A stretch of 41,127 nucleotides of DNA from Methanomicrobiales archaeon (GTDB lineage Archaea > Halobacteriota > Methanomicrobia > Methanomicrobiales > Methanospirillaceae): assembly GCA_013415565.1 (NCBI GenBank), contig JAAEET010000011.1, positions 1-41,127 of the forward strand, read 5' to 3'. Positions 15,883-34,570 of this stretch are shown here, piece after piece. Both the position numbers and the translations under genes were made by a program. The first letter of the stretch is position 1, and each line of letters opens with the position of its first letter. Under the pieces are notes generated by a model, which did not search any database, was not told the DNA's origin, and saw nothing but the letters and a program-made list of their open reading frames with translations.

Positions 15883-16311
15883 TCATGCCGGAGGTTCAGG
15901 CAGAAGGTCGCCCTCGTACTCCACCGTCCCTTCGGTACCGTCAACAGTTACCCTGGTTCCCGTGCGAAGCCGGGCGATATCCACCGCAGGCTGGTCGACC
16001 ATGGGGATATTCCCGATGATCGCGCCGACGGCGATGATGGGATCGGCACGGGTATTGATGATCGCCGCCGGCGCTTTCCCGTTTCTCCGGAGTGCGTAGA
16101 GGACATAGGAGCCGACGGTCGATCCCTTCCCGTGGTCGAAGGCAAGGACGGTTCCTGCGATGCTCTGTCCTTCCAGCGGATGACCCTTCTCGACGATCGT
16201 GCCGGTCTCCGGATCGACCCCGGAGAGGAAGGTAATGGGGGCAGAACTCACCAGGAGCTTCCCTGCCCCGGTCCCCCGTGAGATCGCCCGCGCCCGGAAT
16301 AGCAAAATCAC
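15883..16311 (-). CDS. Phosphomevalonate dehydratase small subunit (DUF126 / aconitase X swivel domain)
   Basis: In the archaeal mevalonate route, phosphomevalonate dehydratase converts 5-phosphomevalonate to trans-anhydromevalonate phosphate; the small subunit is the aconitase-X swivel domain. The 142-residue product reads RARAISRGTGAG near the start, then PITFLSGVDPETGTIVEKGH and LAFDHGKGSTVGSYVLYAL, the hallmark of DUF126. The start is taken as GTG 16311 because family members begin a few residues before F-R-A-R/C. A TATA element (TTACTATTATACT on the minus strand) lies about 28 bp upstream. The large subunit is not in this window. Confidence 0.88.
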   Translation of the reverse strand: MILLFRARAISRGTGAGKLLVSSAPITFLSGVDPETGTIVEKGHPLEGQSIAGTVLAFDHGKGSTVGSYVLYALRRNGKAPAAIINTRADPIIAVGAIIGNIPMVDQPAVDIARLRTGTRVTVDGTEGTVEYEGDLLPEPPA

Positions 16312-16348
16312 ACCTAATAAATGTAGGGAAAACGAGTATAATAGTAAT
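16312..16348. promoter_or_regulatory. 37-bp divergent promoter with two opposed TATA boxes
   Basis: The plus-strand CTAATAAATG at 16314-16323 lies about 30 bp before the PAN ATG. AGTATAATAGTAA at 16335-16347, read on the minus strand, lies about 30 bp before the dehydratase GTG. Neither gene has room for a Shine-Dalgarno leader, so both transcripts are probably leaderless. Confidence 0.55.
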
Positions 16349-17506
16349 ATGGAAGAATCCATCCTCACTCCGGGGGGCGAGTCAGAGCTCACCTCCAAGC
16401 TGAAACTCCAGGATCTCGAGTCCCAGATCCTCGACCTTAAGGTCAGGAACGAGGAGCTCGGGCGGGAGGTCGCTTCGCTCCGGCGCGAGAACAACCAGCT
16501 CAAGAGGATGCCGCTCTTCGTTGCCGTTGTCGTCGATATTCTCAGCACAGGGGAGGTCTATCTCCGGCAGCAGGGCAACAACCAGGAATATATCACCCAC
16601 GTGAACGATGATCTCTTCCAAAAGCTCAAGCCCGGCACCAAGGTCGCGGTCAATAACGCCCTCTCCGTCGTGAGAATTGTCGGCAACATATTCGACTCAC
16701 GGGTCAGGGTCATGGAACTCGACGAATCGCCGGCGGTGACCTTTGAACATATCGGGGGTCTCGAGAAGGAAATCGAAGAGGTGCGGGAAGCTGTCGAATA
16801 CCCGCTCACCCGGCCGCACATCTATGAGCAGGTCGGAGTCGAGCCGCCCAAAGGGATCCTCCTGTACGGGTCTCCGGGGACCGGGAAGACCCTGATCGCG
16901 AAGGCCGTGGCTCACGAGGCGAAAGCGACTTTTATCCGGATGTCCGGGAGCGAGCTGGTGCATAAGTACATCGGTGAGGGCGCCCAGCTGGTCAGGGAGC
17001 TCTTCTCCCTCGCCCGGGAAAAATCACCATCGATCGTATTCATCGACGAGATCGACGCGGTCGGAAGTACCCGGACGAATGACGGGACTTCGGGAAGCGC
17101 CGAGGTACAGCGCACCCTGATGCAGCTTCTTGCCGAGATGGACGGGTTTGACACCCGCGGGGATGTCAGGATCATGGCCGCTACCAACCGGGTGGACATG
17201 CTCGATCCCGCCCTGCTCAGGCCCGGCCGGTTCGACCGGGTCATCGAGATTCCCCTGCCGGATGCGGCAGCCCGGCGGGAGATCCTGAAGATCCACTCCC
17301 GGAAGATGCGGCTCGAGGGGGTCGACCTCGACCGGATCGTAGAGATGACCGAGAACACCACCGGTGCCGAACTCCAGGCGGTCTGCCGTGAGGCCGGCAT
17401 GATGGCGGTCCGGCGGGAAGCCACCGGGGTCTCCCAGAACGACTTCGAGAAAGCGGTCCGGAAGGTCAAGGCCGAGGTGGTTCCCGACCTCCGGATGTAT
17501 ATCTGA
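16349..17506 (+). CDS. pan: Proteasome-activating nucleotidase, copy 1 (short coiled coil)
   Basis: This hexameric AAA+ ATPase unfolds proteins and feeds them to the 20S proteasome. Its 385 residues comprise a coiled coil (13-52), an OB domain (55-125) and the AAA+ module. The AAA+ module shows Walker A GSPGTGKT (174-181), Walker B SIVFIDEID (228-236) and arginine fingers near [10 protein letters not shown]. The C-terminus ends MYI, which fits the hydrophobic-Tyr-X motif that docks into the proteasome alpha ring and opens its gate. The ATG lies at a predicted transcription start. A second PAN gene lies 0.65 kb downstream on the opposite strand. Confidence 0.95.
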   Translation: MEESILTPGGESELTSKLKLQDLESQILDLKVRNEELGREVASLRRENNQLKRMPLFVAVVVDILSTGEVYLRQQGNNQEYITHVNDDLFQKLKPGTKVAVNNALSVVRIVGNIFDSRVRVMELDESPAVTFEHIGGLEKEIEEVREAVEYPLTRPHIYEQVGVEPPKGILLYGSPGTGKTLIAKAVAHEAKATFIRMSGSELVHKYIGEGAQLVRELFSLAREKSPSIVFIDEIDAVGSTRTNDGTSGSAEVQRTLMQLLAEMDGFDTRGDVRIMAATNRVDMLDPALLRPGRFDRVIEIPLPDAAARREILKIHSRKMRLEGVDLDRIVEMTENTTGAELQAVCREAGMMAVRREATGVSQNDFEKAVRKVKAEVVPDLRMYI

Positions 17507-18159: not shown

Positions 18160-19398
18160 TCACGCAAACATTGCGCCGAAGCTGCTGGTGAATTTCTGGC
18201 GGTCGAAATCAAGCCCGATCTTTTCGATGGCGCTGAGGAAATCGCTCCGGGTGATCGCTTCATGATCCTTCCGGATGGCAAACATCCCCGCCTCCATACA
18301 GATGGCCCGGAGGTCGGCCCCGTTTTTCCCGTCCGTGAGGAACGCGATCTCGCGGAGGTTGACCTCTTCATCGAGGTGCATCTTCCGGGTATGGACGTTC
18401 AGGATGGCAAGCCTCCCTTCGATATCCGGAAGGGGGATCTCGATGATCCGGTCGAACCGGCCGGGGCGGAGGAGTGCCCGGTCGAGGATATCGATACGGT
18501 TCGTGGCCCCGACGATCTTGACATCGCCCCGGCGTTCGAACCCGTCCATGCCGGCCAGGAGCTGCATCAGGGTGCGCTGAACCTCCCGGTCGCCGGAGGT
18601 CGTGGCCTCGGTCCGGGAGGCGCCGACGGCATCGATCTCGTCGATGAAAATGATGGTCGGGGACTTTTTCTTGGCAAGATCGAAGAGTTCCCTGACCAGC
18701 CGGGCACCCTCCCCGATATACTTCTGGACCAGTTCCGATCCCACCACCCGGAGGAAATAGGCGTTGGTCTCGTGGGCTACGGCCTTGGCGAGCAGGGTCT
18801 TCCCGGTCCCCGGAGGACCGTGGAGGAGCACGCCTTTGGGAGGTTCGATCCCGATCCGGTCAAAGACTTCGGGCTTCTTCAGCGGGAGTTCCACCGCCTC
18901 CCGGATCTCCAGGATCTGGCGGTCGAGGCCGCCGATATCGTCATAGCTCTCCTCGGGCGTCTCGACCACTTCCATGCCATACACGGCGGCATCATAGCTC
19001 TCCGGCAGGACATCGATGACTGCCAGCGACTGCTGGTTGAGTGTGCACCTGACTCCCGGCTTGAGGTTTTCGGGATCGATGCACATCGAACTCCGTACCA
19101 GGAACCGCGGCCCGGCGCTGCTCCTGACGATGACCCGGTTGGCATCGACCACGTCGGTGACCGTGCCGATGACCAGGGGAGGGCTCCGGAGCTGCTCGAT
19201 CTCGCTCTTGAGCTTGCGCACCTCCCGTTCGTACCGGATCTTCTGGGTCTCGATGTATCGCTTGTCCGACTCGACCTGGCGGAGCTGTTCACGGAGTTCC
19301 AGATTGCGTGTCTCCATGTTTGTCACGCGGTCGAGAAGGTATCGGCATAATTCCTCAGGATTCTGGGGCTCCTGCGGCTGCCGGGCGCTTTCTGCCAT
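18160..19398 (-). CDS. pan: Proteasome-activating nucleotidase, copy 2 (long coiled coil, no canonical HbYX tail)
   Basis: This second AAA+ proteasomal ATPase has 412 residues. It has a long coiled coil (about 24-72), an OB domain (74-135), Walker A GPPGTGKT (194-201), Walker [15 protein letters not shown] and [10 protein letters not shown]. Unlike copy 1 it ends GAMFA: the terminal MFA has Phe where the HbYX docking motif has Tyr. A GAGG ribosome-binding site lies 6-9 nt before ATG 19398. It is divergent from the MBF1 gene. The two PAN proteins could form separate or mixed hexamers, as proposed for other archaea with PAN-A and PAN-B. Confidence 0.94.
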
Positions 19399-19410
19399 CT
19401 TTTTCCTCAA

Positions 19411-19457: not shown

Positions 19458-19955
19458 ATGCAGTGTGAACTATGCGGCGCAAAGATCCAGGGGCAGCCAA
19501 AGACTGTCAGGATAGAAGGTGCCCTGCTGGATGTCTGTGCCCAGTGTGCAAAGTACGGGACCGAGGTGCAGAGACCAAAGAAAGCGGAAGGAAGGGGAAA
19601 GCCGGTTACCGGGAGGCCCGCCCCGGCCCCGGTACCGGCCCGTCGTCGTCGTGACGTTCTCGATCTGATCGAGGGCGAGATCGTCGAAGATTACGGGGAA
19701 CGGATCCGGACCGCCCGGATGGAGCGGGGCTGGAGCCAGAAGGATCTCGCCATGGAGCTCAAGGAGAAGGAGCTCCTGATCAAGAAGATCGAGAAGGGAG
19801 ACCTGATCCCGGAGGATGATGTCCGGATCAAACTCGAGCGGACCCTGCACATCCGGCTGATCGATACCGCCGAGGAGACATCGGAAAAAAAGAAAGGCGG
19901 CAGGGTCGTCCCGACGCTCGGGGACGTTATCTCCATCAAGAAAATTCACAAATAG
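19458..19955 (+). CDS. Archaeal multiprotein bridging factor aMBF1
   Basis: The 165-residue protein has a zinc ribbon with Cys3, Cys6, Cys27 and Cys30 (MQCELCG and CAQC), a basic Pro-rich linker (about 42-68) and a helix-turn-helix of the XRE/MBF1 type (about 78-135, YGERIRTARMERGWSQKDLA). A conserved tail PTLGDVISIKKIHK follows. Archaeal MBF1 associates with ribosomes and basal transcription. The ATG has only a weak ribosome-binding sequence. It is transcribed alone and followed by a CTCTTTTTCC terminator. Confidence 0.93.
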   Translation: MQCELCGAKIQGQPKTVRIEGALLDVCAQCAKYGTEVQRPKKAEGRGKPVTGRPAPAPVPARRRRDVLDLIEGEIVEDYGERIRTARMERGWSQKDLAMELKEKELLIKKIEKGDLIPEDDVRIKLERTLHIRLIDTAEETSEKKKGGRVVPTLGDVISIKKIHK

Positions 19956-20000: not shown

Positions 20001-20011
20001 AATTTATATAG
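20001..20011 (+). promoter_or_regulatory. TATA box of the aromatic amino acid operon
   Basis: AATTTATATAG is a strong TATA match. Its centre at about 20006 predicts transcription start around 20030-20034, exactly where the ATG of a 15-codon reading frame lies. The first structural gene begins 240 bp downstream of the box, so the transcript has an unusually long leader for this genome. Confidence 0.65.
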
Positions 20012-20033: not shown

Positions 20034-20081
20034 ATGCAAGGTGAGTGTTTTTTCACCGGTGAGTGTTTTTATCGCTCCTAG
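20034..20081 (+). CDS. Candidate leader peptide rich in Phe and Tyr
   Basis: The frame from ATG 20034 to TAG 20079-20081 reads MQGECFFTGECFYRS. Three Phe and one Tyr fall in two repeats of G-E-C-F-(F/Y), encoded by an 18-bp DNA repeat (GGTGAGTGTTTTT at 20040 and again at 20058). The ATG coincides with the predicted transcription start, so it would be translated as a leaderless message. The downstream operon makes Phe and Tyr. Its role as an attenuation leader is inferred; the frame and repeats are seen directly. Confidence 0.45.
   Translation: MQGECFFTGECFYRS
20040..20070 (+). repeat. Two direct 13-bp repeats, period 18 bp
   Basis: GGTGAGTGTTTTT occurs at 20040-20052 and 20058-20070. The period of exactly six codons keeps the candidate leader peptide in frame. 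GGTGA (20040-20044) can also pair with TCACC (20053-20057), and GTGAG of either copy can pair with CTCAC at 20087-20091, so competing RNA structures are possible. Confidence 0.7.
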
Positions 20082-20109
20082 CCCGGCTCACGCACGTTGC
20101 ATAACGGTT

Positions 20110-20196
20110 CTCCGGAATGCTGTTCCCGGAGCCGTGGCTGGTTCCAGCTGTCATGCTTATTTTGGTTATTTTAGTTATTTTGGCTATTTTGCCTGA
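20110..20196 (+). promoter_or_regulatory. Candidate attenuator: hairpins followed by U-rich tandem repeats
   Basis: CTCCGG (20110-20115) pairs perfectly with CCGGAG (20126-20131). A second small stem, GCTG-GTTC-CAGC, spans 20137-20148. Directly after it, four tandem 9-bp units of TTATTTTGG type (20157-20192) supply four T4 runs, the feature that drives intrinsic termination in archaea. In the frame ending at TGA 20194-20196 the same repeats read [12 protein letters not shown], so they could instead be the control codons of a second leader frame opening at GTG 20134 or further upstream. Which reading is right cannot be told from one sequence. Confidence 0.45.
20157..20192 (+). repeat. Four tandem 9-bp repeats (TTATTTTGG type)
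   Basis: Units are TTATTTTGG, TTATTTTAG, TTATTTTGG and CTATTTTGC, with no gaps. This is the only short tandem repeat seen in the window, and it sits 55 bp before the first gene of the aromatic operon. Confidence 0.85.
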
Positions 20197-20246
20197 TTTC
20201 CGTGAGCACATTCCCTGGAATGCGGCGCATGGAGGAGTGGTGTTGT

Positions 20247-21047
20247 ATGAGAGGAAAAGAAATCCGTCTGGAACGTATCATCGATCGAAACACCCGGAAG
20301 ACGATCATCGTCCCCATGGATCACGGGGTCACGAACGGGCCGATAGCAGGCCTGATCGATCTCGGTGAGGCCGTCGACCGGGTCGCGGAAGGAGGAGCGA
20401 ACGCGGTGCTCGGCCACGTGGGGCTTGCCCTGCACGGGCACCGGAAGAGCGGGAGGGATGTGGGGCTGATCCTGCATCTCTCGGCAAGCACGACAATCGG
20501 GCCGGACCCGAATGAAAAAGTGCTGGTCAATTCGGTGACCAATGCGCTCAAGATGGGTGCCGATGCAGTATCGGTACACATCAACATCGGAGCCGATTCG
20601 GAAGCCCGGATGCTTGCAGACCTCGGGGAGGTGGCGATCGAGTGCATGGAATGGGGCATGCCCCTCCTGGCCATGATGTATCCCCGCGGGAGAAAGATCG
20701 CCAACGAGCATAGTCCCGACCATGTCGCACTTGCGGCCCGGGTTGCCGCCGAGCTCGGTGCCGATATGGTAAAGACCGTGTATACCGGAGATCCCGACAG
20801 CTTCCGGGCCGTGACCCGGGGGTGCCCGGTCCCGGTGGTGGTGGCGGGCGGATCCAAGACCGACGATCGCTCGACCCTGGAGCTGATCGAGGGGGCCATG
20901 TCGGGAGGGGCGACCGGCATCTCCATCGGGAGAAATGCCTTCCAGCACCAGAACCCGGCCCGGTTCATCAGGGCGGCTGCCCTCATCGTGCATGAGGGCA
21001 GGAGCGCAGAAGAGGCATGTGAATTGTTGAAGAGGAATGAACCATGA
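20247..21047 (+). CDS. ADTH synthase (2-amino-3,7-dideoxy-D-threo-hept-6-ulosonate synthase), copy 1
   Basis: This DhnA-type aldolase makes the seven-carbon precursor that replaces DAHP in the archaeal shikimate route. The 266 residues include MDHG (Asp25), MMYPRG (Tyr145) and MVKTVYTGD (Schiff-base Lys176), the catalytic set known from MJ0400. Compared with MJ0400 and copy 2 it lacks the Lys of the HKG motif ([12 protein letters not shown]). The start at 20247 has GGAGG about 12 nt upstream and begins [14 protein letters not shown]; a longer reading from 20202 is less likely. It is the first gene of an eight-gene operon with overlapping ends. Confidence 0.9.
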
Positions 21048-21829
21048 TTGGAAAAGAGATCCGGATAGAGCGAATCATTGACCGGAATACCGGAAGGGCG
21101 GTAATCGTGCCCATGGACCACGGGTTCACCCTCGGCCAGATCGAGGGACTCATGGATATGACCCGGGTGATTTCGGACGTCAGCGAGGGCGGGGCGAACG
21201 CCATCGTCCTCCACAAGGGGATCGTGAAGCGGGGGCACCGGCGAAAGGGGAGGGACATCGGCCTGATCGTCCACCTTTCCGGGAGCACATCGCTCAATCC
21301 AGACCCGAACGATAAGGTTCTGGTCTGCACCGTGGAAGAGGCGGTGGCGCTGGGCGCCGACGGCGTCTCCATCCACATCAACCTCGGGGCACCGAATGAA
21401 TCAAAGATGCTCGAGGATGCCGCAGCCGTGGTGAGGGACTGCAAGAGATGGGGCATGCCCCTCCTGGTTATGATCTACCCGCGGGGAAAGGGGATCGATT
21501 CGTACTCACCCCAGTCGGTGGGGCACTGTGTCCGTGTTGCCGAGGAGCTCGGTGCCGACCTGATCAAGACCAACTACACCGGGGACCCGGTCAGCTTTGC
21601 CCGGATCGTGAAGGCCTGCTCGGTCCCGGTGTTCATCGCCGGTGGGGAAAAGGCGGGAGACCTCGAGACCCTTGCAGCGATCCGCGACTCGGTGAACGCC
21701 GGCGGAGCCGGCGTCTGCGTGGGGAGGAACGCCTTCCAGCGGGAGAATACCACGGCCTTCGTCCGGGCCCTCTGCCATGTCGTCCATGATGGATGGGACC
21801 CTGAACGGGCGCTTTCGGAGCGGTCATGA
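21044..21829 (+). CDS. ADTH synthase, copy 2
   Basis: This tandem paralogue of the preceding gene has 261 residues and starts [20 protein letters not shown]. It has the same catalytic set: Asp25 in MDHG, Tyr145 in MIYPRG and Lys175 in LIKTNYTGD. It retains [12 protein letters not shown], the form found in MJ0400, but its last third is more diverged than copy 1. It overlaps copy 1 and the next gene by four bases each (ATGA). Either both act as isozymes or one has shifted substrate, for example toward fructose-bisphosphate-type aldol chemistry. Confidence 0.88.
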
Positions 21830-22812
21830 AAGAGTTCTGGGTTGATATCCGCCCCTGGAAGAAGGAGCTTGCGACCGCTGCAATCGAGAGCGGAGCCGAC
21901 GTGATCGTTACGGAAGCGGCCGCACCGGTGAAAGCGCTTGGCAGGATGACGGTGGTCTCGGATGACGGGGATCTCATATGGGGGACTGATGTCGTCGAGG
22001 TCACCATAACGGGCACGGAAGGGATGGAAGAGGCGGAGGCCATGGCGAGGAAGGGATACGTGGTGGTGGAGACCGGTGACTGGCGGGTGATCCCCCTTGA
22101 GAACCTGGTCGCTGTCTCTGACCGGATCATCGCCGCGGTGCGATCGGAAGAAGAGGCCGACCTCGCCTTGACGGTGCTCGAGAAGGGAGTTCGTGGAATC
22201 CTCCTGAAGGAGCCGACCCCCGCCCTGATCAGGAAGGTCGGCACACGGGTCAGGGCCGGTACCGGAAGGACCGACCTGGTCCCGTTCACGGTCACCGCAG
22301 TCCGGCCGATCGGGATGGGCGACCGGGTTTGCGTCGATACCTGCTCCATGCTCACGGAAGGCGAGGGAATCCTTGTGGGAAACACTTCATCGGCGCTCCT
22401 GCTCGTCCAGGCAGAGACCCTCGAGAATCCCTACGTCAGTCCCCGGCCCTTCAGAGTGAACGCCGGTGCTGTGCATGCCTATACGCTCGTTCCCGGTGAG
22501 AAGACCGCCTACCTTTCGGATCTCTCTGCCGGGGACCATGTGCTTGCCGTAACACATGACGGTATCCTGCGGGATGCTGGGGTGGGCCGGGTGAAGATCG
22601 AGCAGCGGCCGCTGTTGCTGGTCGAAGCCGAGGCCGACGGCGTGAAGGCGAGCCTGGTGCTCCAGAATGCGGAAACGGTACGCCTGGTCGGGGCCGACGG
22701 GATTCCGATCTCGGTTGTTGCGCTTACCCCGGGCGACCGGGTGCTCGGCAGGGTGCTGCAGGCCGGCCGGCACTTCGGGATCGCCGTGAAGGAATCGATC
22801 ATCGAGAAGTGA
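21826..22812 (+). CDS. 3-dehydroquinate synthase II (archaeal AroB')
   Basis: This enzyme oxidatively deaminates and cyclises ADTH to 3-dehydroquinate, the second step of the archaeal route. The 328 residues begin [20 protein letters not shown] and hold the family blocks TCSMLTEGEGILVGNTSSAL, RPFRVNAGAVHAYTLVPG and YLSDLSAGDHVLAV. It is unrelated to bacterial AroB. Translational coupling to both ADTH synthase genes fits direct handover of ADTH. Confidence 0.96.
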   Translation: MKEFWVDIRPWKKELATAAIESGADVIVTEAAAPVKALGRMTVVSDDGDLIWGTDVVEVTITGTEGMEEAEAMARKGYVVVETGDWRVIPLENLVAVSDRIIAAVRSEEEADLALTVLEKGVRGILLKEPTPALIRKVGTRVRAGTGRTDLVPFTVTAVRPIGMGDRVCVDTCSMLTEGEGILVGNTSSALLLVQAETLENPYVSPRPFRVNAGAVHAYTLVPGEKTAYLSDLSAGDHVLAVTHDGILRDAGVGRVKIEQRPLLLVEAEADGVKASLVLQNAETVRLVGADGIPISVVALTPGDRVLGRVLQAGRHFGIAVKESIIEK

Positions 22813-22816
22813 CAGG

Positions 22817-23641
22817 ATGAAAGTCGGAATAATCGGTGGAACCGGAAAGATGGGACACCTCTTTGCCGGTGTCTTTGAACGGGCGGGGCATGAGGTCCGG
22901 GTGTGCGGGAGAACGACCGTGGTCACCTGCCAGGAACTGGCGCAGGAGTGCGACCTCGTCATGGTCTCCGTACCGATCCGGGACACCGTTGAGGTCATCC
23001 GCCGCATCGCCCCCCTTCTTTCGCCCGGGCAGGTCCTCTGCGACCTCACCTCGCTGAAAGTCGGACCGGTCACGGCCATGCTGGAATCGGCGGCATCGGT
23101 GATCGGGTTTCACCCGATGTTCGGCCCTGGTGTCCCCTCCCTCCGGGGCCAGACCATCGTCGCCACCCCCGTGCGGTGCACCACGGAGACCCTCCATGCG
23201 ATCCTCTCGATCTTTGAATGCGAGGGAGCCGGAATCACCATTTCAACTCCCGAGGAGCATGACCGGGTCATGGCGCTGGTGCAGGGCCTGACCCACAGCG
23301 TCACCCTCCTCGTGGCCGATACCATGCGGCGGCTCGCCATGACCCCGGAAGAGACCGCCCCCTTCATGAGCCCGGTCTACCAGATCGAGATGGGGCTGGT
23401 GGGGCGCCTCCTCTCCCAGGAGCCGGACCTGTACGGGGACATCCTCAGGCTGAACCCGTTCGTGCCGCCAATACTCGCGGCATACGCCCAGTCCCTCGCA
23501 GAGCTCAGGGAGATCGTTGATGCCGGGGATGCCGGGGCGTTCAGCACCCTCTTTGAGAGGAATGCAGCGCATTTCGGATCCTACTGCACCAGGGCGGCTG
23601 CGGAGACCGACTTCCTGATCCGGGCGATGGTGGACCGATGA
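22817..23641 (+). CDS. tyrA: Prephenate dehydrogenase
   Basis: This enzyme oxidises prephenate to 4-hydroxyphenylpyruvate for tyrosine. The 274 residues open with the Rossmann motif VGIIGGTGKMGHLFA. Family motifs are VSVPIRDTVEVI, CDLTSLK, GFHPMFGPG (with the catalytic His in the HPMFGP loop) and LTHSVTLLVADT. The gene has no chorismate mutase or ACT domain. It starts 4 bp after the previous stop and overlaps pheA by four bases. Confidence 0.95.
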   Translation: MKVGIIGGTGKMGHLFAGVFERAGHEVRVCGRTTVVTCQELAQECDLVMVSVPIRDTVEVIRRIAPLLSPGQVLCDLTSLKVGPVTAMLESAASVIGFHPMFGPGVPSLRGQTIVATPVRCTTETLHAILSIFECEGAGITISTPEEHDRVMALVQGLTHSVTLLVADTMRRLAMTPEETAPFMSPVYQIEMGLVGRLLSQEPDLYGDILRLNPFVPPILAAYAQSLAELREIVDAGDAGAFSTLFERNAAHFGSYCTRAAAETDFLIRAMVDR

Positions 23642-24435
23642 CGATCCTGGCGCTCGGTCCCGAGGGCACGTTCTCCCATGAACTCGCAGTCCGGGTCTTT
23701 CCCGGCCCGGTCATGCTGGTCCCCACCATCTCCGGGATTTTCTCCCAGGTCGAAGCCGGCGTCTGCGACGGTATCGTGCCGATCGAGAACAGCGAGGCCG
23801 GCGGGGTTGGCCCGACACTCGACGGGCTGCTGCAGCACGAGGTCTATATTACCGCCGAACTGTTCATGCCGATCCACCACTACCTCGTGTCAAGGGTTCC
23901 CCTGGATGAAATCGCGGTGCTCTATGCCCATCCGCAGACCCATGAACAGTGCAGCAGGTTCATCGATGAGCTGGGAGTGCCGGTGATCCACACCAGCAGC
24001 AATGCCGCAAGCGCCGAGTCAATGGCCGGTTCACCGGCATCGGCCGCCATCGTATCGCGGATGACTGCGGGGCTGCACCATCTGCCTGTCGTCACGGAGC
24101 ATGTGGAGAACAACCCGTCGAACACCACCCGGTTCGTGGTGATCTCGAACCGGCGGGGAGAGGAGCGGGACTGTACCAAGTGCAGCATCCTGGTCGATCC
24201 CGAACAGGACCGGGCCGGTCTTCTCTACGAGCTTCTCGGGATCTTCGCCACCCGGAATATCAACCTGACAAGGATCGAGTCACGCCCTTCAAAGCGGGGG
24301 ATGGGCCGGTACATCTTTTTCATGGATACGGACTACACTCCCGGATGGACCGATGCCCTCCGTGCGCTCCGGGAGAAGGCACGGTTCCGGGAGCTCGGGT
24401 GCTACCGGGAACTGGAGGTGCCCGCATGGACGTGA
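23638..24435 (+). CDS. pheA: Prephenate dehydratase with ACT domain
   Basis: This enzyme converts prephenate to phenylpyruvate for phenylalanine. The 265 residues comprise a catalytic domain beginning LALGPEGTFSHELA with IENSEAGGVGPTLD and the NPSNTTRFVV motif. A C-terminal ACT domain (about 180-260) carries the ESRPSK motif that binds phenylalanine, so feedback inhibition by Phe is expected. No chorismate mutase domain is fused. It overlaps tyrA and aroA, so the Tyr and Phe branch enzymes are encoded before the chorismate-forming enzymes. Confidence 0.96.
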   Translation: MTILALGPEGTFSHELAVRVFPGPVMLVPTISGIFSQVEAGVCDGIVPIENSEAGGVGPTLDGLLQHEVYITAELFMPIHHYLVSRVPLDEIAVLYAHPQTHEQCSRFIDELGVPVIHTSSNAASAESMAGSPASAAIVSRMTAGLHHLPVVTEHVENNPSNTTRFVVISNRRGEERDCTKCSILVDPEQDRAGLLYELLGIFATRNINLTRIESRPSKRGMGRYIFFMDTDYTPGWTDALRALREKARFRELGCYRELEVPAWT

Positions 24436-25691
24436 CCCTCGAAAAGGCGGAAGGAATCGGAATCACGGTCCGGGCTCCCCCGTCCAAGAGCTACACGCAC
24501 CGGGCCCTGATAACGGCGGCACTGGGGGAAGGGACGAGCATCCTTGAGCATCCCCTCGATGCCACCGATACCGCAATCACGGCGGGAGCTCTCGCCCAGC
24601 TCGGAATCCGGATCGATCGCGACGGGGAGAACCTGCGGGTGACTGGGTCGGGCGGGGCCCTGGACTGCCCCGGGAATACCGAACTCGGGATGGGGGATTC
24701 GGGGACCAGTTTCCGCCTCCTCACCTCGGTAGCACTCCTCTGCCGGAACCCCGTCGTCCTGACCGGGAGCGCCCGTATGAGAGAACGCCCGGTGGGAGGG
24801 CTGGTTACGGCCCTGAACGCGATCGGGGGGAGGATCCGGTACCTGGGATCTCCGGGATTCCCCCCGATCCTCATCGACGGTGAGCTCGCGGGAGGGACGG
24901 TCAGCGTCGAGAGCAGCGTCAGCAGCCAGTTTGCATCATCCCTCCTCCTTGCCGCTCCCTGTGCCCGGTCTGTCGTGGAAGTAGAAATCCCTCCCGGAGC
25001 CGTCTCACTGGCCTACCTCGACGTGACGGCAGATGTCATGGCATCGTTCGGGGTGAAGGTTCAGCGGGACGGCTACCGACGGTTCCAGGTCATCCCGGCC
25101 CGGTACCGGGCACGGACCTACCGGATCGAGGGTGACTATTCATCGGCCTCGTACTTCTTTGCCATGGCTGCCGCATGCGGGGGAAGGGCAACGGTGGAAA
25201 ACCTGGTCCCGGCATCGGTCCAGGGAGACCGGTGTCTGCTGGAAGCGCTGGCGGAGATGGGCTGCCGGGTAGGGTCCTCCGGTGATGCCGTCACGGTGGA
25301 AAGCGACGGCCGGCTCGAGGGAATCGAGCGGGACATGTCCGCCTCGCCCGATATCGTCCAGACGCTCTGCATGGTTGCGGCGCGGGCCGTCTCTCCCTCC
25401 CGGTTTACCGGGATCTCCCACCTGCAGTTCAAGGAAAGCGACCGTATCCGCGCAGTCCTCGGGATTATCCGGACCCTCGGCGGCGATGCGACCTGTGAGC
25501 AGGATGCCATCATCATCCGGCCGGCACATCTTCACGGCGGGATTGTTGATGCCGGAAATGATCACCGCACCGCGATGAGTGCGGCAGTGCTCGGTCTCGC
25601 GGTGGGGGGCGTCACCATCACGGGTGCGGAGTGCGTCAGCAAGTCTTTTCCGGATTTCTGGAAAATACTCCATGAGGTCGGACTGGTATGA
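24426..25691 (+). CDS. aroA: 3-phosphoshikimate 1-carboxyvinyltransferase (EPSP synthase)
   Basis: EPSP synthase joins PEP to shikimate 3-phosphate. The 421 residues show SKSYTHRALI with Lys21, MGDSGTSFRLL, RMRERPVGGLVTAL, ESSVSSQFASSLLLAAP, HLQFKESDRI and NDHRTAMSAAVLGLA, all blocks of the active site. The glycine-loop reads GDSGTSFRLL rather than the NAGTAMRPL of enterobacterial enzymes, as in divergent archaeal and class II-like forms. The ATG at 24426 overlaps pheA by 10 bp and fits the family N-terminus. Confidence 0.96.
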   Translation: MDVTLEKAEGIGITVRAPPSKSYTHRALITAALGEGTSILEHPLDATDTAITAGALAQLGIRIDRDGENLRVTGSGGALDCPGNTELGMGDSGTSFRLLTSVALLCRNPVVLTGSARMRERPVGGLVTALNAIGGRIRYLGSPGFPPILIDGELAGGTVSVESSVSSQFASSLLLAAPCARSVVEVEIPPGAVSLAYLDVTADVMASFGVKVQRDGYRRFQVIPARYRARTYRIEGDYSSASYFFAMAAACGGRATVENLVPASVQGDRCLLEALAEMGCRVGSSGDAVTVESDGRLEGIERDMSASPDIVQTLCMVAARAVSPSRFTGISHLQFKESDRIRAVLGIIRTLGGDATCEQDAIIIRPAHLHGGIVDAGNDHRTAMSAAVLGLAVGGVTITGAECVSKSFPDFWKILHEVGLV

Positions 25692-27067
25692 GGATCGTAC
25701 TGTGCGGGTTCCGGGGGACAGGGAAGACCGAGTGCGGCATTCTGCTGTCCCGGCTCATCAGTCTCCCATTTTTCGATACCGATGCGCTGATCGAGGAGCA
25801 GGCCGGGAAAACCATCCACGAGATATTTTCCGGGGAGGGGGAGGAGATCTTCCGGGACTACGAGCGGCAGGTCATTGCCACCCTTCCCGGAACGGGCTGC
25901 ATTATCGGGACCGGCGGTGGAGCGGTGATCGATCCCCGGAATGTGGAAGCGCTCCGACGGGGAAGCACGATGATTCTCCTCGAAGCCGAACCTGCAGCCA
26001 TCGAACAGCGGATCCGGGACACCACCCGGCCGCCGCTCACCACCCTCCCCCTCCGGGATGAAATCCGTCTCCTGCTGAAGGAGCGGAAGCCGTTCTATAC
26101 CCGTGCCGCCGATTTTTGTATCGATACGACCACCCGGAGCCCGAACGAGGTCTGCCTTGCCATACTGAGGATCCTCGCTGAGGGCACAGCCTCACCGGGT
26201 GCCGGGGCCCGGGCGGTCCGGTTCCTGGAGGCGTCCGGGATTCCGGAAAACGAGATCCGGGCCTTTGAGCAGGCAGCGGTAGGGGGGGATCCGAAGACGC
26301 GGCTGTTTGCCATCGCCGGGAACCCGTCAGTCCACAGCCGGAGCCCGGCACTCTTCTCCCGGCTCTTCGCCCACTACGGCCTGAACTGCCACTATACCCG
26401 CCTGCAGGCCCCCGATATTGTTCCGATACTCCGCCTCTGCCATGACCTCGATTTCCGGGCACTCTCGGTGACCATCCCCTTCAAGAGCAGCATCATGGAG
26501 CACCTGTCGGGCATCGAACCCGACGCCGGGGAGATCGGGGCGGTCAATACCGTGGTATGGTGCGGGGGAAGGAGTTACGGGTCCAATACGGACTGGATCG
26601 GCATCCGCGACGCTCTCACCGATGCCCGGGGATCGAAGGCGGTCGTGCTGGGTGCCGGCGGCGCCGCGGCAGCGGCGGTCTACGCGCTCAAAGCGCTCTC
26701 CATGGAAATCACCGTCCTCAACCGGACGGTCAGCACCGCGGAGGATCTTGCCGGGAGGTTCGGCTGCGAATCCGGACCCCCGGAAGCATTCGACCGGGCC
26801 GATCCCGACATCGTTATCAATGCCACTCCGGTCGGGATGGAGCCGGACACGCACAGCCCGCTGAAGAAGTCCCAGCTGAAACCGTCCATGACCGTCTTTG
26901 ACCTGGTCTACACCCCAGCCGAGACGCCGCTTCTCAGGCTCGCACGGACTGCCGGATGCAGGGTGATCCCCGGTACGGAGATGTTTGTCCGGCAGGCTGC
27001 CACGCAGTTCCGCCACTTTACCGGAATTTCAGCACCTCTTGACCTGGTGAGGAGCATGATGCCATGA
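25688..27067 (+). CDS. Fused shikimate kinase (P-loop type) and shikimate dehydrogenase
   Basis: One 459-residue chain catalyses two successive steps. Residues 1-165 are an AroK/AroL-type shikimate kinase: GFRGTGKT (7-14), [16 protein letters not shown], a GTGGG substrate loop (74-78) and the LID arginine in TRPPL. Residues about 205-459 are Aro[11 protein letters not shown], catalytic Lys266 in VTIPFK, Asp302 in SNTDWIG, NADP loop [15 protein letters not shown] and INATPVGM. The linker shows no decay, and no stop or frameshift is seen. Archaea usually use an unrelated GHMP shikimate kinase, so the kinase half may be of bacterial origin. Confidence 0.94.
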
Positions 27068-28062
27068 ACACGTTCGGAAAATCGTTCAGATGTACGACGT
27101 TCGGTGAGAGCCACGGTCCTGCGCTGGGCGTGGTCATCGACGGATGTCCACCGGGACTCTCTCTTTCGGAGAATGATATCCAGCCGGCACTCGACCGCCG
27201 GAGACCGGGCCGTGACCCCCTCACATCGCCGCGGGCCGAGCCCGACCGGGTAGAGATCCTCTCGGGGGTCTTCGAGGGCAGAACCACCGGGACGCCGATC
27301 GCGCTGATCATCCGGAACCGCGAGGCGAGGTCGTCCGATTATGACGAGCTCCGCGATGTCTATCGCCCTGGCCATGCCGATTACACCTACCAGATGAAGT
27401 ATGGGATCCGCGATCACCGGGGCGGGGGCCGGTCGTCGGGCCGGGAGACGGCTGCCCGGGTTGCAGCCGGGGCGGTCGCCGCCCGGATCCTCTCGGAAGC
27501 CGGGATTACCGTCGAAGGAACCATCGAGGAGATCCACGGAGTGAGCGATCCCACGGGACGTGAGGAGGAGATTCGCAGGGCCATGGCGGAAGGGGATTCT
27601 GTCGGCGGGATCATCCGGATCACGGCCCGCGGCGGTCCACCCGGCCTCGGCGACCCGGTGTTCGGCAAGCTCGATGCCCGGATCGCCGGGGCACTGATGA
27701 GCATCGGCGGGGTGAAAGGGGTCGAGATCGGGGACGGGTTCGCAGCCGCCCGGATGAAGGGAAGCGAGCACAACGACCAGATGGACAGCACCGGGTTCCT
27801 TTCCAACCACGCCGGGGGGATTCTCGGCGGCATCAGTTCCGGGGCAGATATCGTGGTCAGGGTGGGGGTGAAGCCGACCTCATCCATCAGAAAACCCCAG
27901 AAAACCCTGACGAGGGATGGCGAGGAGACGGTGGTGCGGATCGGGGGCCGGCACGATCCCTGCATCGTCCCCCGGGTGCTGCCGGTTGCGGAGGCGATGC
28001 TCTGCCTGGTCCTGGCAGATGCCCTGATCGAGCAGCAGAAGTACCGGCTATTTCAGGGTTGA
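27064..28062 (+). CDS. aroC: Chorismate synthase
   Basis: This FMN-dependent enzyme makes chorismate from EPSP. The 332 residues carry the signatures [33 protein letters not shown] and [21 protein letters not shown], plus [10 protein letters not shown] and [17 protein letters not shown] near the C-terminus. It overlaps the preceding fusion gene by four bases and closes the aromatic operon. At 332 residues it is slightly shorter than bacterial AroC (about 360), as is common in archaea. Confidence 0.97.
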
Positions 28063-34219: not shown

Positions 34220-34568
34220 AGAAGCGAGTGGGAGGAGTAAGCCCCCTTCTGTTCGGTGCGGCATTCAGCTTGGCGCCATACCCGGGTAGTCGTGCCTGAG
34301 CAGCCACAATACCCTGTTCTGGCTTGCACCCGCAGGGATTCGCCGTTTCATCGCATCCTGCCCGTCGGCTCAGCGGGTTATCTTGTGCGTTGCCGCACGT
34401 CTCGCCCGTGAGGGCTCGGCCGTATCATCGCTCGGGGCAGGCCGTGTCGTTTCTGTGCCAGTGCCGTGACTCTCGCCACCCATACTTGCGTATGGCTGCG
34501 TGCCCAGGTGGTGGGGGGACTTTCCTCAGCGGCCGGTCTCCCGGCCACCGTCAGCCGCACTCTCCCTC
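34220..34568 (-). ncRNA. rnpB: RNase P RNA
   Basis: This is the catalytic RNA that trims tRNA 5' ends. The two universally conserved core blocks are on the minus strand: GAGGAAAGTCC (34527-34517, 5' half of P4) and AGAAGGGGGCTTA (34250-34238, 3' half of P4). The ends can pair as P1: GAGAGTG near 34564-34558 with CACTCGC at 34230-34224, with one mismatch. A minus-strand TATA-like CTAAATATG (34592-34600) gives a start near 34570. The ends are estimated to about 10 nt. Size and P4 core fit an archaeal type A RNA. Confidence 0.93.
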
Positions 34569-34570
34569 TC

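Follow-up and report, generated by a model that had tools for sequence, protein, structure and literature searches.

Four tandem 9-bp repeats that can be read as Tyr-Phe pairs lie directly upstream of an operon for aromatic amino acid synthesis in a member of the archaeal order Methanomicrobiales, which by its named relatives is a methanogen of the Methanoregulaceae type. The locus raises the question of whether this reading has meaning and, if so, how a ribosome would arrive at it. The window is the 41,127-nucleotide stretch of DNA that was analyzed; coordinates are positions within it, on the plus strand unless stated otherwise. The first controlled gene is the ADTH synthase aroA' (20247–21047; TIGR01949, 343 bits), and an NCBIfam scan assigned the rest of the operon (21044–28062) to a second ADTH synthase, DHQ synthase II, prephenate dehydrogenase, prephenate dehydratase, EPSP synthase, a shikimate kinase-dehydrogenase fusion, and chorismate synthase. 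The products are chorismate, prephenate, and precursors of phenylalanine and tyrosine. As is usual for an amino acid leader, the upstream reading frame is enriched in codons for the regulated amino acids, and the operon downstream makes those amino acids. Judged from a comparison of the sequence before the operon at 98 distinct loci, one of them that of the window, control of the operon by an aromatic leader peptide is very probable.

The aromatic end of the leader

Tandem Repeats Finder (TRF) places an array of period 9 at 20157–20191 (3.9 copies, 88% match, score 56), the top-scoring tandem array of the window. The frame of 20158–20196 translates to the Tyr-Phe run and closes with TGA at 20194–20196, 50 nt before the ADTH synthase start at 20247. 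One of the other frames is rich in Leu/Ile/Val, and the third is interrupted by TAG. Both TRF and translation bear out the earlier note as to where the array lies, its fourfold Tyr-Phe reading and its distance from the gene, and its description of the other two frames was also correct. That note lacked a translation start, the 15-codon zero-frame ORF, and the +1 frame relation described below.

The aromatic frame, which had been presented as one choice among three, proves to be the meaningful one. In the relatives, the most aromatic 14-codon stretch before any stop contains a mean of 7.2 Phe, Tyr, or Trp codons, compared with 2.6 in shuffles of the whole region and 3.9 in shuffles of the tail only, which preserve the tail's own dinucleotides and its U-richness. 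At least seven such codons are present in 63% of loci versus 6% of local shuffles. The run and stop at 20157–20196 represent a conserved F/Y/W-rich leader end: a run of this kind, followed by a stop, closes the leader frame in nearly all of the 96 usable loci. The stop usually falls 32–80 nt upstream of the first gene, with a few lineages (L074, L081, and L082) in which it is distant. On this comparison, the aromatic reading of the tail is under selection and is conserved across the Methanomicrobiales; the tail was absent from 20 upstream regions of other Halobacteriota classes. A Trp-rich leader before trpE was also considered, and none was consistent in 24 loci, a sample in which trpE does not necessarily head its operon.

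The repeat itself is a different matter. Variation in copy number by whole 9-bp units, which the earlier note had anticipated, is contradicted by the nearest relative (L084, 97% identical protein), whose tail aligns to that of the window without gaps and differs by substitutions. Across relatives the Tyr-Phe reading is kept, and between the window and this nearest relative no change by a whole unit is seen. In other clades the tails have no 9-bp period; they read FFSFYYRFYYWY, FGYYRYFWYRQ, or AAAFYRYFTWF before the stop, and further endings are FYQFFFSFFRFFWY and AAAFYRYFTWFIQF. Because these tails differ in sequence, neither the 9-bp period nor the T run is the conserved element, and the period is, by this comparison, a by-product of a Tyr-Phe-X codon pattern.

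The leader start and the proposed change of frame

A TATA box (TTTATATA, 20003–20010) marks the promoter of the leader and operon; in relatives its center lies 26–30 bp before the leader ATG, with a median of 28. The ATG at 20034 is conserved, sits 28 bp downstream of the box in the window, and opens a 15-codon zero-frame ORF (f0, 20034–20081) encoding MQGECFFTGECFYRS and ending at TAG 20079–20081. This ORF is kept in 80 loci as a 5' motif of about ATG-NNN-GGTGARTGTTTTTTCGCC-GGTGAATGTTTTTAY, 28 bp past the TATA box, and the pattern occurs at most once per genome among the genomes searched. The consensus peptide is MxGECFFxGECFYxx followed by a stop, 15 codons long and up to 26. When changes are inferred on the tree of the downstream gene, 41 of 98 in f0 are synonymous, against 24% expected (p = 7e-5), and the same count finds the +1 frame neutral within the motif region. 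TAG, TAA, and TGA replace one another at the f0 stop, and its position two codons past the Tyr codon is held in 64 of the 81 loci counted. The f0 peptide thus appears to be under purifying selection, although the synonymous excess could in part be nucleotide constraint.

The aromatic tail does not lie in this frame. It is out of frame with the ATG in all 80 motif loci (assigned automatically in 78, and by eye in L022 and L096). The +1 frame (f1, 20035–20196) is open from the motif to TGA 20194–20196 and, after a shift at the second of the units described below, would be read from ATC 20071. An independently chosen aromatic stretch falls in f1 in 78 of the 80 motif loci, with f1 open throughout. 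The stretch from the f0 stop to the tail holds no stops in f1, compared with 70 in f0 and 93 in f2 (1833 codons per frame), and f1 is open for 40 codons in 78 loci versus about 16 of 82 in dinucleotide shuffles. Of 81 loci, 55 have no ATG in f1. Except for the avoidance of stops, the middle part of f1 is free to change, and the tail differs about half as fast; freedom from amino acid constraint is what one would expect of a spacer and is no independent proof of translation. The Leu/Ile/Val frame was rejected as a coding gene, having only a sub-threshold Pfam match and f2 translations with no visible conservation.

What might carry a ribosome from f0 to f1 is suggested by a repeated unit within the motif, in which an SD-like xGTGAx is followed by a 3-nt spacer, a slip codon YTT and then T, and an A-site codon, which specifies Phe in unit 1 and Tyr in unit 2. 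In the window, unit 1 (20040–20054) consists of GGTGAG, TGT, the slip codon TTT, and the Phe codon TTC, and unit 2 (20058–20072) of GGTGAG, TGT, TTT, and the Tyr codon TAT. At least two complete in-frame units are present in 74 of 80 loci, compared with 0 of 4000 mononucleotide shuffles. The codons used are rare in the operon (GGT is 11% of Gly, TGT 16% of Cys, and TTT 28% of Phe codons), and the bases are therefore constrained beyond the peptide. The archaeal 16S end (TGGATCACCTCCT), which is complementary to GGUGA, was present in four of six relatives tested; the 16S end of the genome itself was not found in the assembly, and the anti-SD is thus read from relatives. Three 18-nt units, the first degenerate, replace the usual two in L005, L006, L007, L059, L087, and the Methanoregula group (L026, L052–L055, L062, L063, L066, and L067). 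The element that varies in copy number at this locus is this putative ECFFAR frameshift unit and not the 9-bp tail unit.

The unit resembles the bacterial release factor 2 (prfB) site, whose layout is AGGGGG-UAU-CUU-UGA. Both have a short zero-frame ORF that ends early, an SD-like element three bases before YUU-U, and a slow A-site codon. Unlike in prfB, the slow codon is Phe or Tyr and not UGA, there are two tandem cassettes, the product is a regulatory leader and not release factor 2, and the ribosomes are archaeal. The part played by the SD and the slow A-site codon in the RF2 frameshift has been described (PMC5009743). Slippage at the f0 stop codon itself is unlikely, as the codons ahead of the stop are diverse and not slippery.

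Natural variants bear on the route more directly. In the 15 loci without the motif, an ATG reads straight into the aromatic tail in frame, and it lies 25–31 bp past the TATA box where the spacing is measurable (for L068, L069, and L104, the leader ATG was taken as the internal one). By parsimony on the downstream-gene tree, the motif state changes six times. Alignment of L068 and L069 with L108 and L064 shows one base missing exactly at slip site 2 (in L068, CTTTATC has become CTTATC), and L080 lacks one base in the T run of slip site 1. These deletions place ATG and tail in a single frame and so mimic a +1 shift. They lend indirect support to a trans-frame product at both slip sites, and taken together the natural variants favor, without proving, an ATG start with +1 frameshifting over independent initiation in f1. 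We consider it probable that the tail is reached by a +1 frameshift.

The hairpin, the proposed mechanism, and its rivals

Directly 3' of the leader stop is a hairpin (20198–20234). Its 3' arm runs into the first bases of GGAGGAG (20231–20237), which by its position is the ribosome-binding site of the first operon gene. In most loci the hairpin begins 0–6 nt past the stop, and its 3' arm extends to the SD of the first gene or ends next to it, as expected of a translational attenuator. In the window's clade (13 relatives), 80.6% of cells pair, and covariation is 0.204 (1 of 500 shuffles), with slid partners giving 0.104 or less. Over 83 loci, pairing in the SD zone is 0.62 versus 0.49 with shuffled partners, a modest excess. 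The mean structure z is −1.84 at the post-stop hairpin and −0.55 before the U-rich tail, where structure is weak; the window's own hairpin folds with z = −0.7, unexceptional for its composition. A conserved hairpin followed by a U run, the hallmark of a transcription attenuator, was not found between leader and gene, where the SD and start codon follow the hairpin. One terminator-like match is present in the window, at 20134–20151. No riboswitch or leader RNA of Rfam matched the window at gathering score, archaeal RNase P being the sole match.

These features suggest the following scheme. Translation would begin at ATG 20034, on an mRNA that is nearly leaderless. With Phe-tRNA and Tyr-tRNA both charged, ribosomes would read MQGECFFTGECFYRS and stop at TAG 20079. 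If either tRNA is short, the ribosome would pause with a hungry UUC or UAU in the A site, and the SD-like GGUGA, located 3 nt upstream of the slip codon, would aid the slip of the P-site tRNA from YUU to UUU, a +1 shift as in bacterial RF2. The shifted ribosome would then read f1 to the Tyr/Phe run and stall there, covering the 5' arm of the hairpin past TGA 20194, so that GGAGGAG is freed and the operon is translated. Slipping, its response to starvation, and the opening of the hairpin by stalling are the three steps that we infer; the stop-free frame and the selection on codons bear only indirectly on whether the leader is translated and whether expression responds to starvation. The earlier note had offered ribosome stalling as one possible role of the repeats, and a stalling leader is indeed the explanation that best accounts for the conserved aromatic tail and stop-free f1. 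In our judgment, a starvation-gated +1 frameshift that feeds a translational attenuator offers the best explanation of the locus as a whole, a reading we favor with some reserve. The effect probably falls mainly on initiation of translation and not on transcription. More tentatively, and with slightly less than even confidence, a starvation-responsive shift at hungry Phe/Tyr codons could be the primary sensor, in which case two sensing steps would act in series.

The main rival to entry by frameshifting is that f1 is a separate ORF with its own start, GTG 20041, inside f0; its aromatic end would stall ribosomes and open the hairpin, and f0 would be a decoy or second leader. Of about 80 motif loci, 78 do have a GTG, or in eight loci an ATG, at this place in unit 1, and the G-to-A swap preserves a start codon. 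On a nearly leaderless mRNA, however, there is no room for an SD ahead of this GTG, and the ATG is 7 bases upstream. In L068 and L069, moreover, the frame opened by the GTG stops after 25 codons, short of the tail, which is there in frame with the ATG. A direct start would also leave unexplained why SD-like/slip units are repeated, why the f0 peptide is selected, why f0 stops early at a fixed place, and why deletions fall at the slip sites. We regard it as unlikely, although it deserves to be kept in mind. Somewhat similar weight attaches to transcription attenuation, an unlikely reading in which the U-rich tail would act as a U-tract terminator of the archaeal kind, whether intrinsic or dependent on FttA, with the position of the ribosome gating RNA polymerase. 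The tail has a median T fraction of 0.45 and prefers TTT to TTC (198:76) and TAT to TAC (218:27), against the operon's own genes, which favor TTC and TAC; because of this bias, some contribution of the tail to termination is possible. The aromatic codons nevertheless exceed what U-richness yields, TGG codons are common in the tails (42 counted), the longest T run does not exceed 4 in 62 of 97 loci, and structure is strongest at the hairpin that extends to the ribosome-binding site, away from the tract. Of the earlier note's view of the repeats as a terminator-like tract, the U-richness stands; termination as the main function does not, given the loss of aromatic codons in U-keeping shuffles, the TGG-bearing tails, a longest T run of 4 in the window's tail tract, and a hairpin placed after the stop. 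On the excess of codons and the placement of structure, we rejected a pure U-tract terminator as the sole function.

It is quite improbable that the 5' motif is a DNA operator, with direct repeats spaced 18 bp at the transcription start and bound by a repressor, and that the f0 peptide is incidental. The motif does lie beside the TATA box and contains direct repeats, and other lineages have a promoter palindrome, but changes in the motif track the f0 codon frame, the number of units shifts by exactly six codons, and loss of the motif coincides with fusion of the frames. Chance, or a functionless U-rich sequence of low complexity, would account for a tract that is T-rich and repetitive; conservation across an order, frame specificity, and values far above those of shuffles make this scarcely credible.

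Known systems and neighboring features

Leader-peptide attenuation of amino acid operons is a textbook bacterial mechanism. Like pheL-pheA and trpL, the leader described here has, shortly before the biosynthetic genes, a short ORF in which codons for the regulated amino acids abound, and starvation stalling would be the sensor. Unlike these leaders, it is archaeal and nearly leaderless, no conserved terminator/antiterminator pair was found in it, the regulatory hairpin reaches the ribosome-binding site, and the aromatic tail is not in the frame of the start codon. As in erm and cat translational attenuation, a ribosome stalled on the leader would open a hairpin and so unblock the ribosome-binding site of the gene that follows; the signal here would be amino acid starvation and not a drug, and the leader end would be reached by frameshifting. 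Frameshifting has been reported in Escherichia coli pheL and regarded as incidental (PMC5009743).

A change of frame during elongation would also be shared with archaeal programmed frameshifting, namely the −1 shift of Saccharolobus fucA1 and a possible +1 shift in the haloarchaeal virus HSTV-2. Those frameshifts make proteins, and none is described as a regulator of a biosynthetic operon or as an amino acid sensor (PMC8211752). Apart from the −1 fucosidase and frameshifting in some haloarchaeal viruses, the same review of archaeal recoding names selenocysteine and pyrrolysine, for which stop codons are read through, and, as a possible further case, magnesium chelatase (PMC8211752). A 2016 review knew of no functional, starvation-specific trans-frame product arising from hungry-codon frameshifting (PMC5009743). 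In our literature search, which covered subscription journals little, we found neither a description of this leader nor a described case of leader-peptide attenuation of an archaeal amino acid operon. One archaeal leader-peptide attenuator seems to be conserved here across a methanogen order. Should the +1 shift prove real, the locus would offer both a programmed +1 frameshift of cellular archaea and a functional use of hungry-codon slipping.

Promoter palindromes occur in two settings. One type (GTGCTACTATGTnACATAGTAGCAC) overlaps the aroA' promoter in other Halobacteriota classes (L145, L150, L153–L156, and L160). Another (TGCCATGctaTAGCATGGCA) lies between the TATA box and the leader ATG in some Methanomicrobiales (L023, L030–L032, L057, L064, L068, L069, L104, L108, and L112), and its carriers are mostly without the frameshift motif. 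Such a palindrome may be a repressor operator, present alongside the recoding leader or in its place.

Within the operon, the two tandem ADTH synthase paralogues (20247–21829) are 53% identical and open the operon in most relatives. The gene directly 5' of the leader encodes the multiprotein bridging factor aMBF1 (19458–19955; TIGR00270). Two paralogues of the proteasome-activating nucleotidase (PAN) are located near each other on opposite strands, at 16199–17506 (plus) and 18160–19410 (minus), and the archaeal RNase P RNA maps to 34226–34570 on the minus strand (RF00373, 196 bits).
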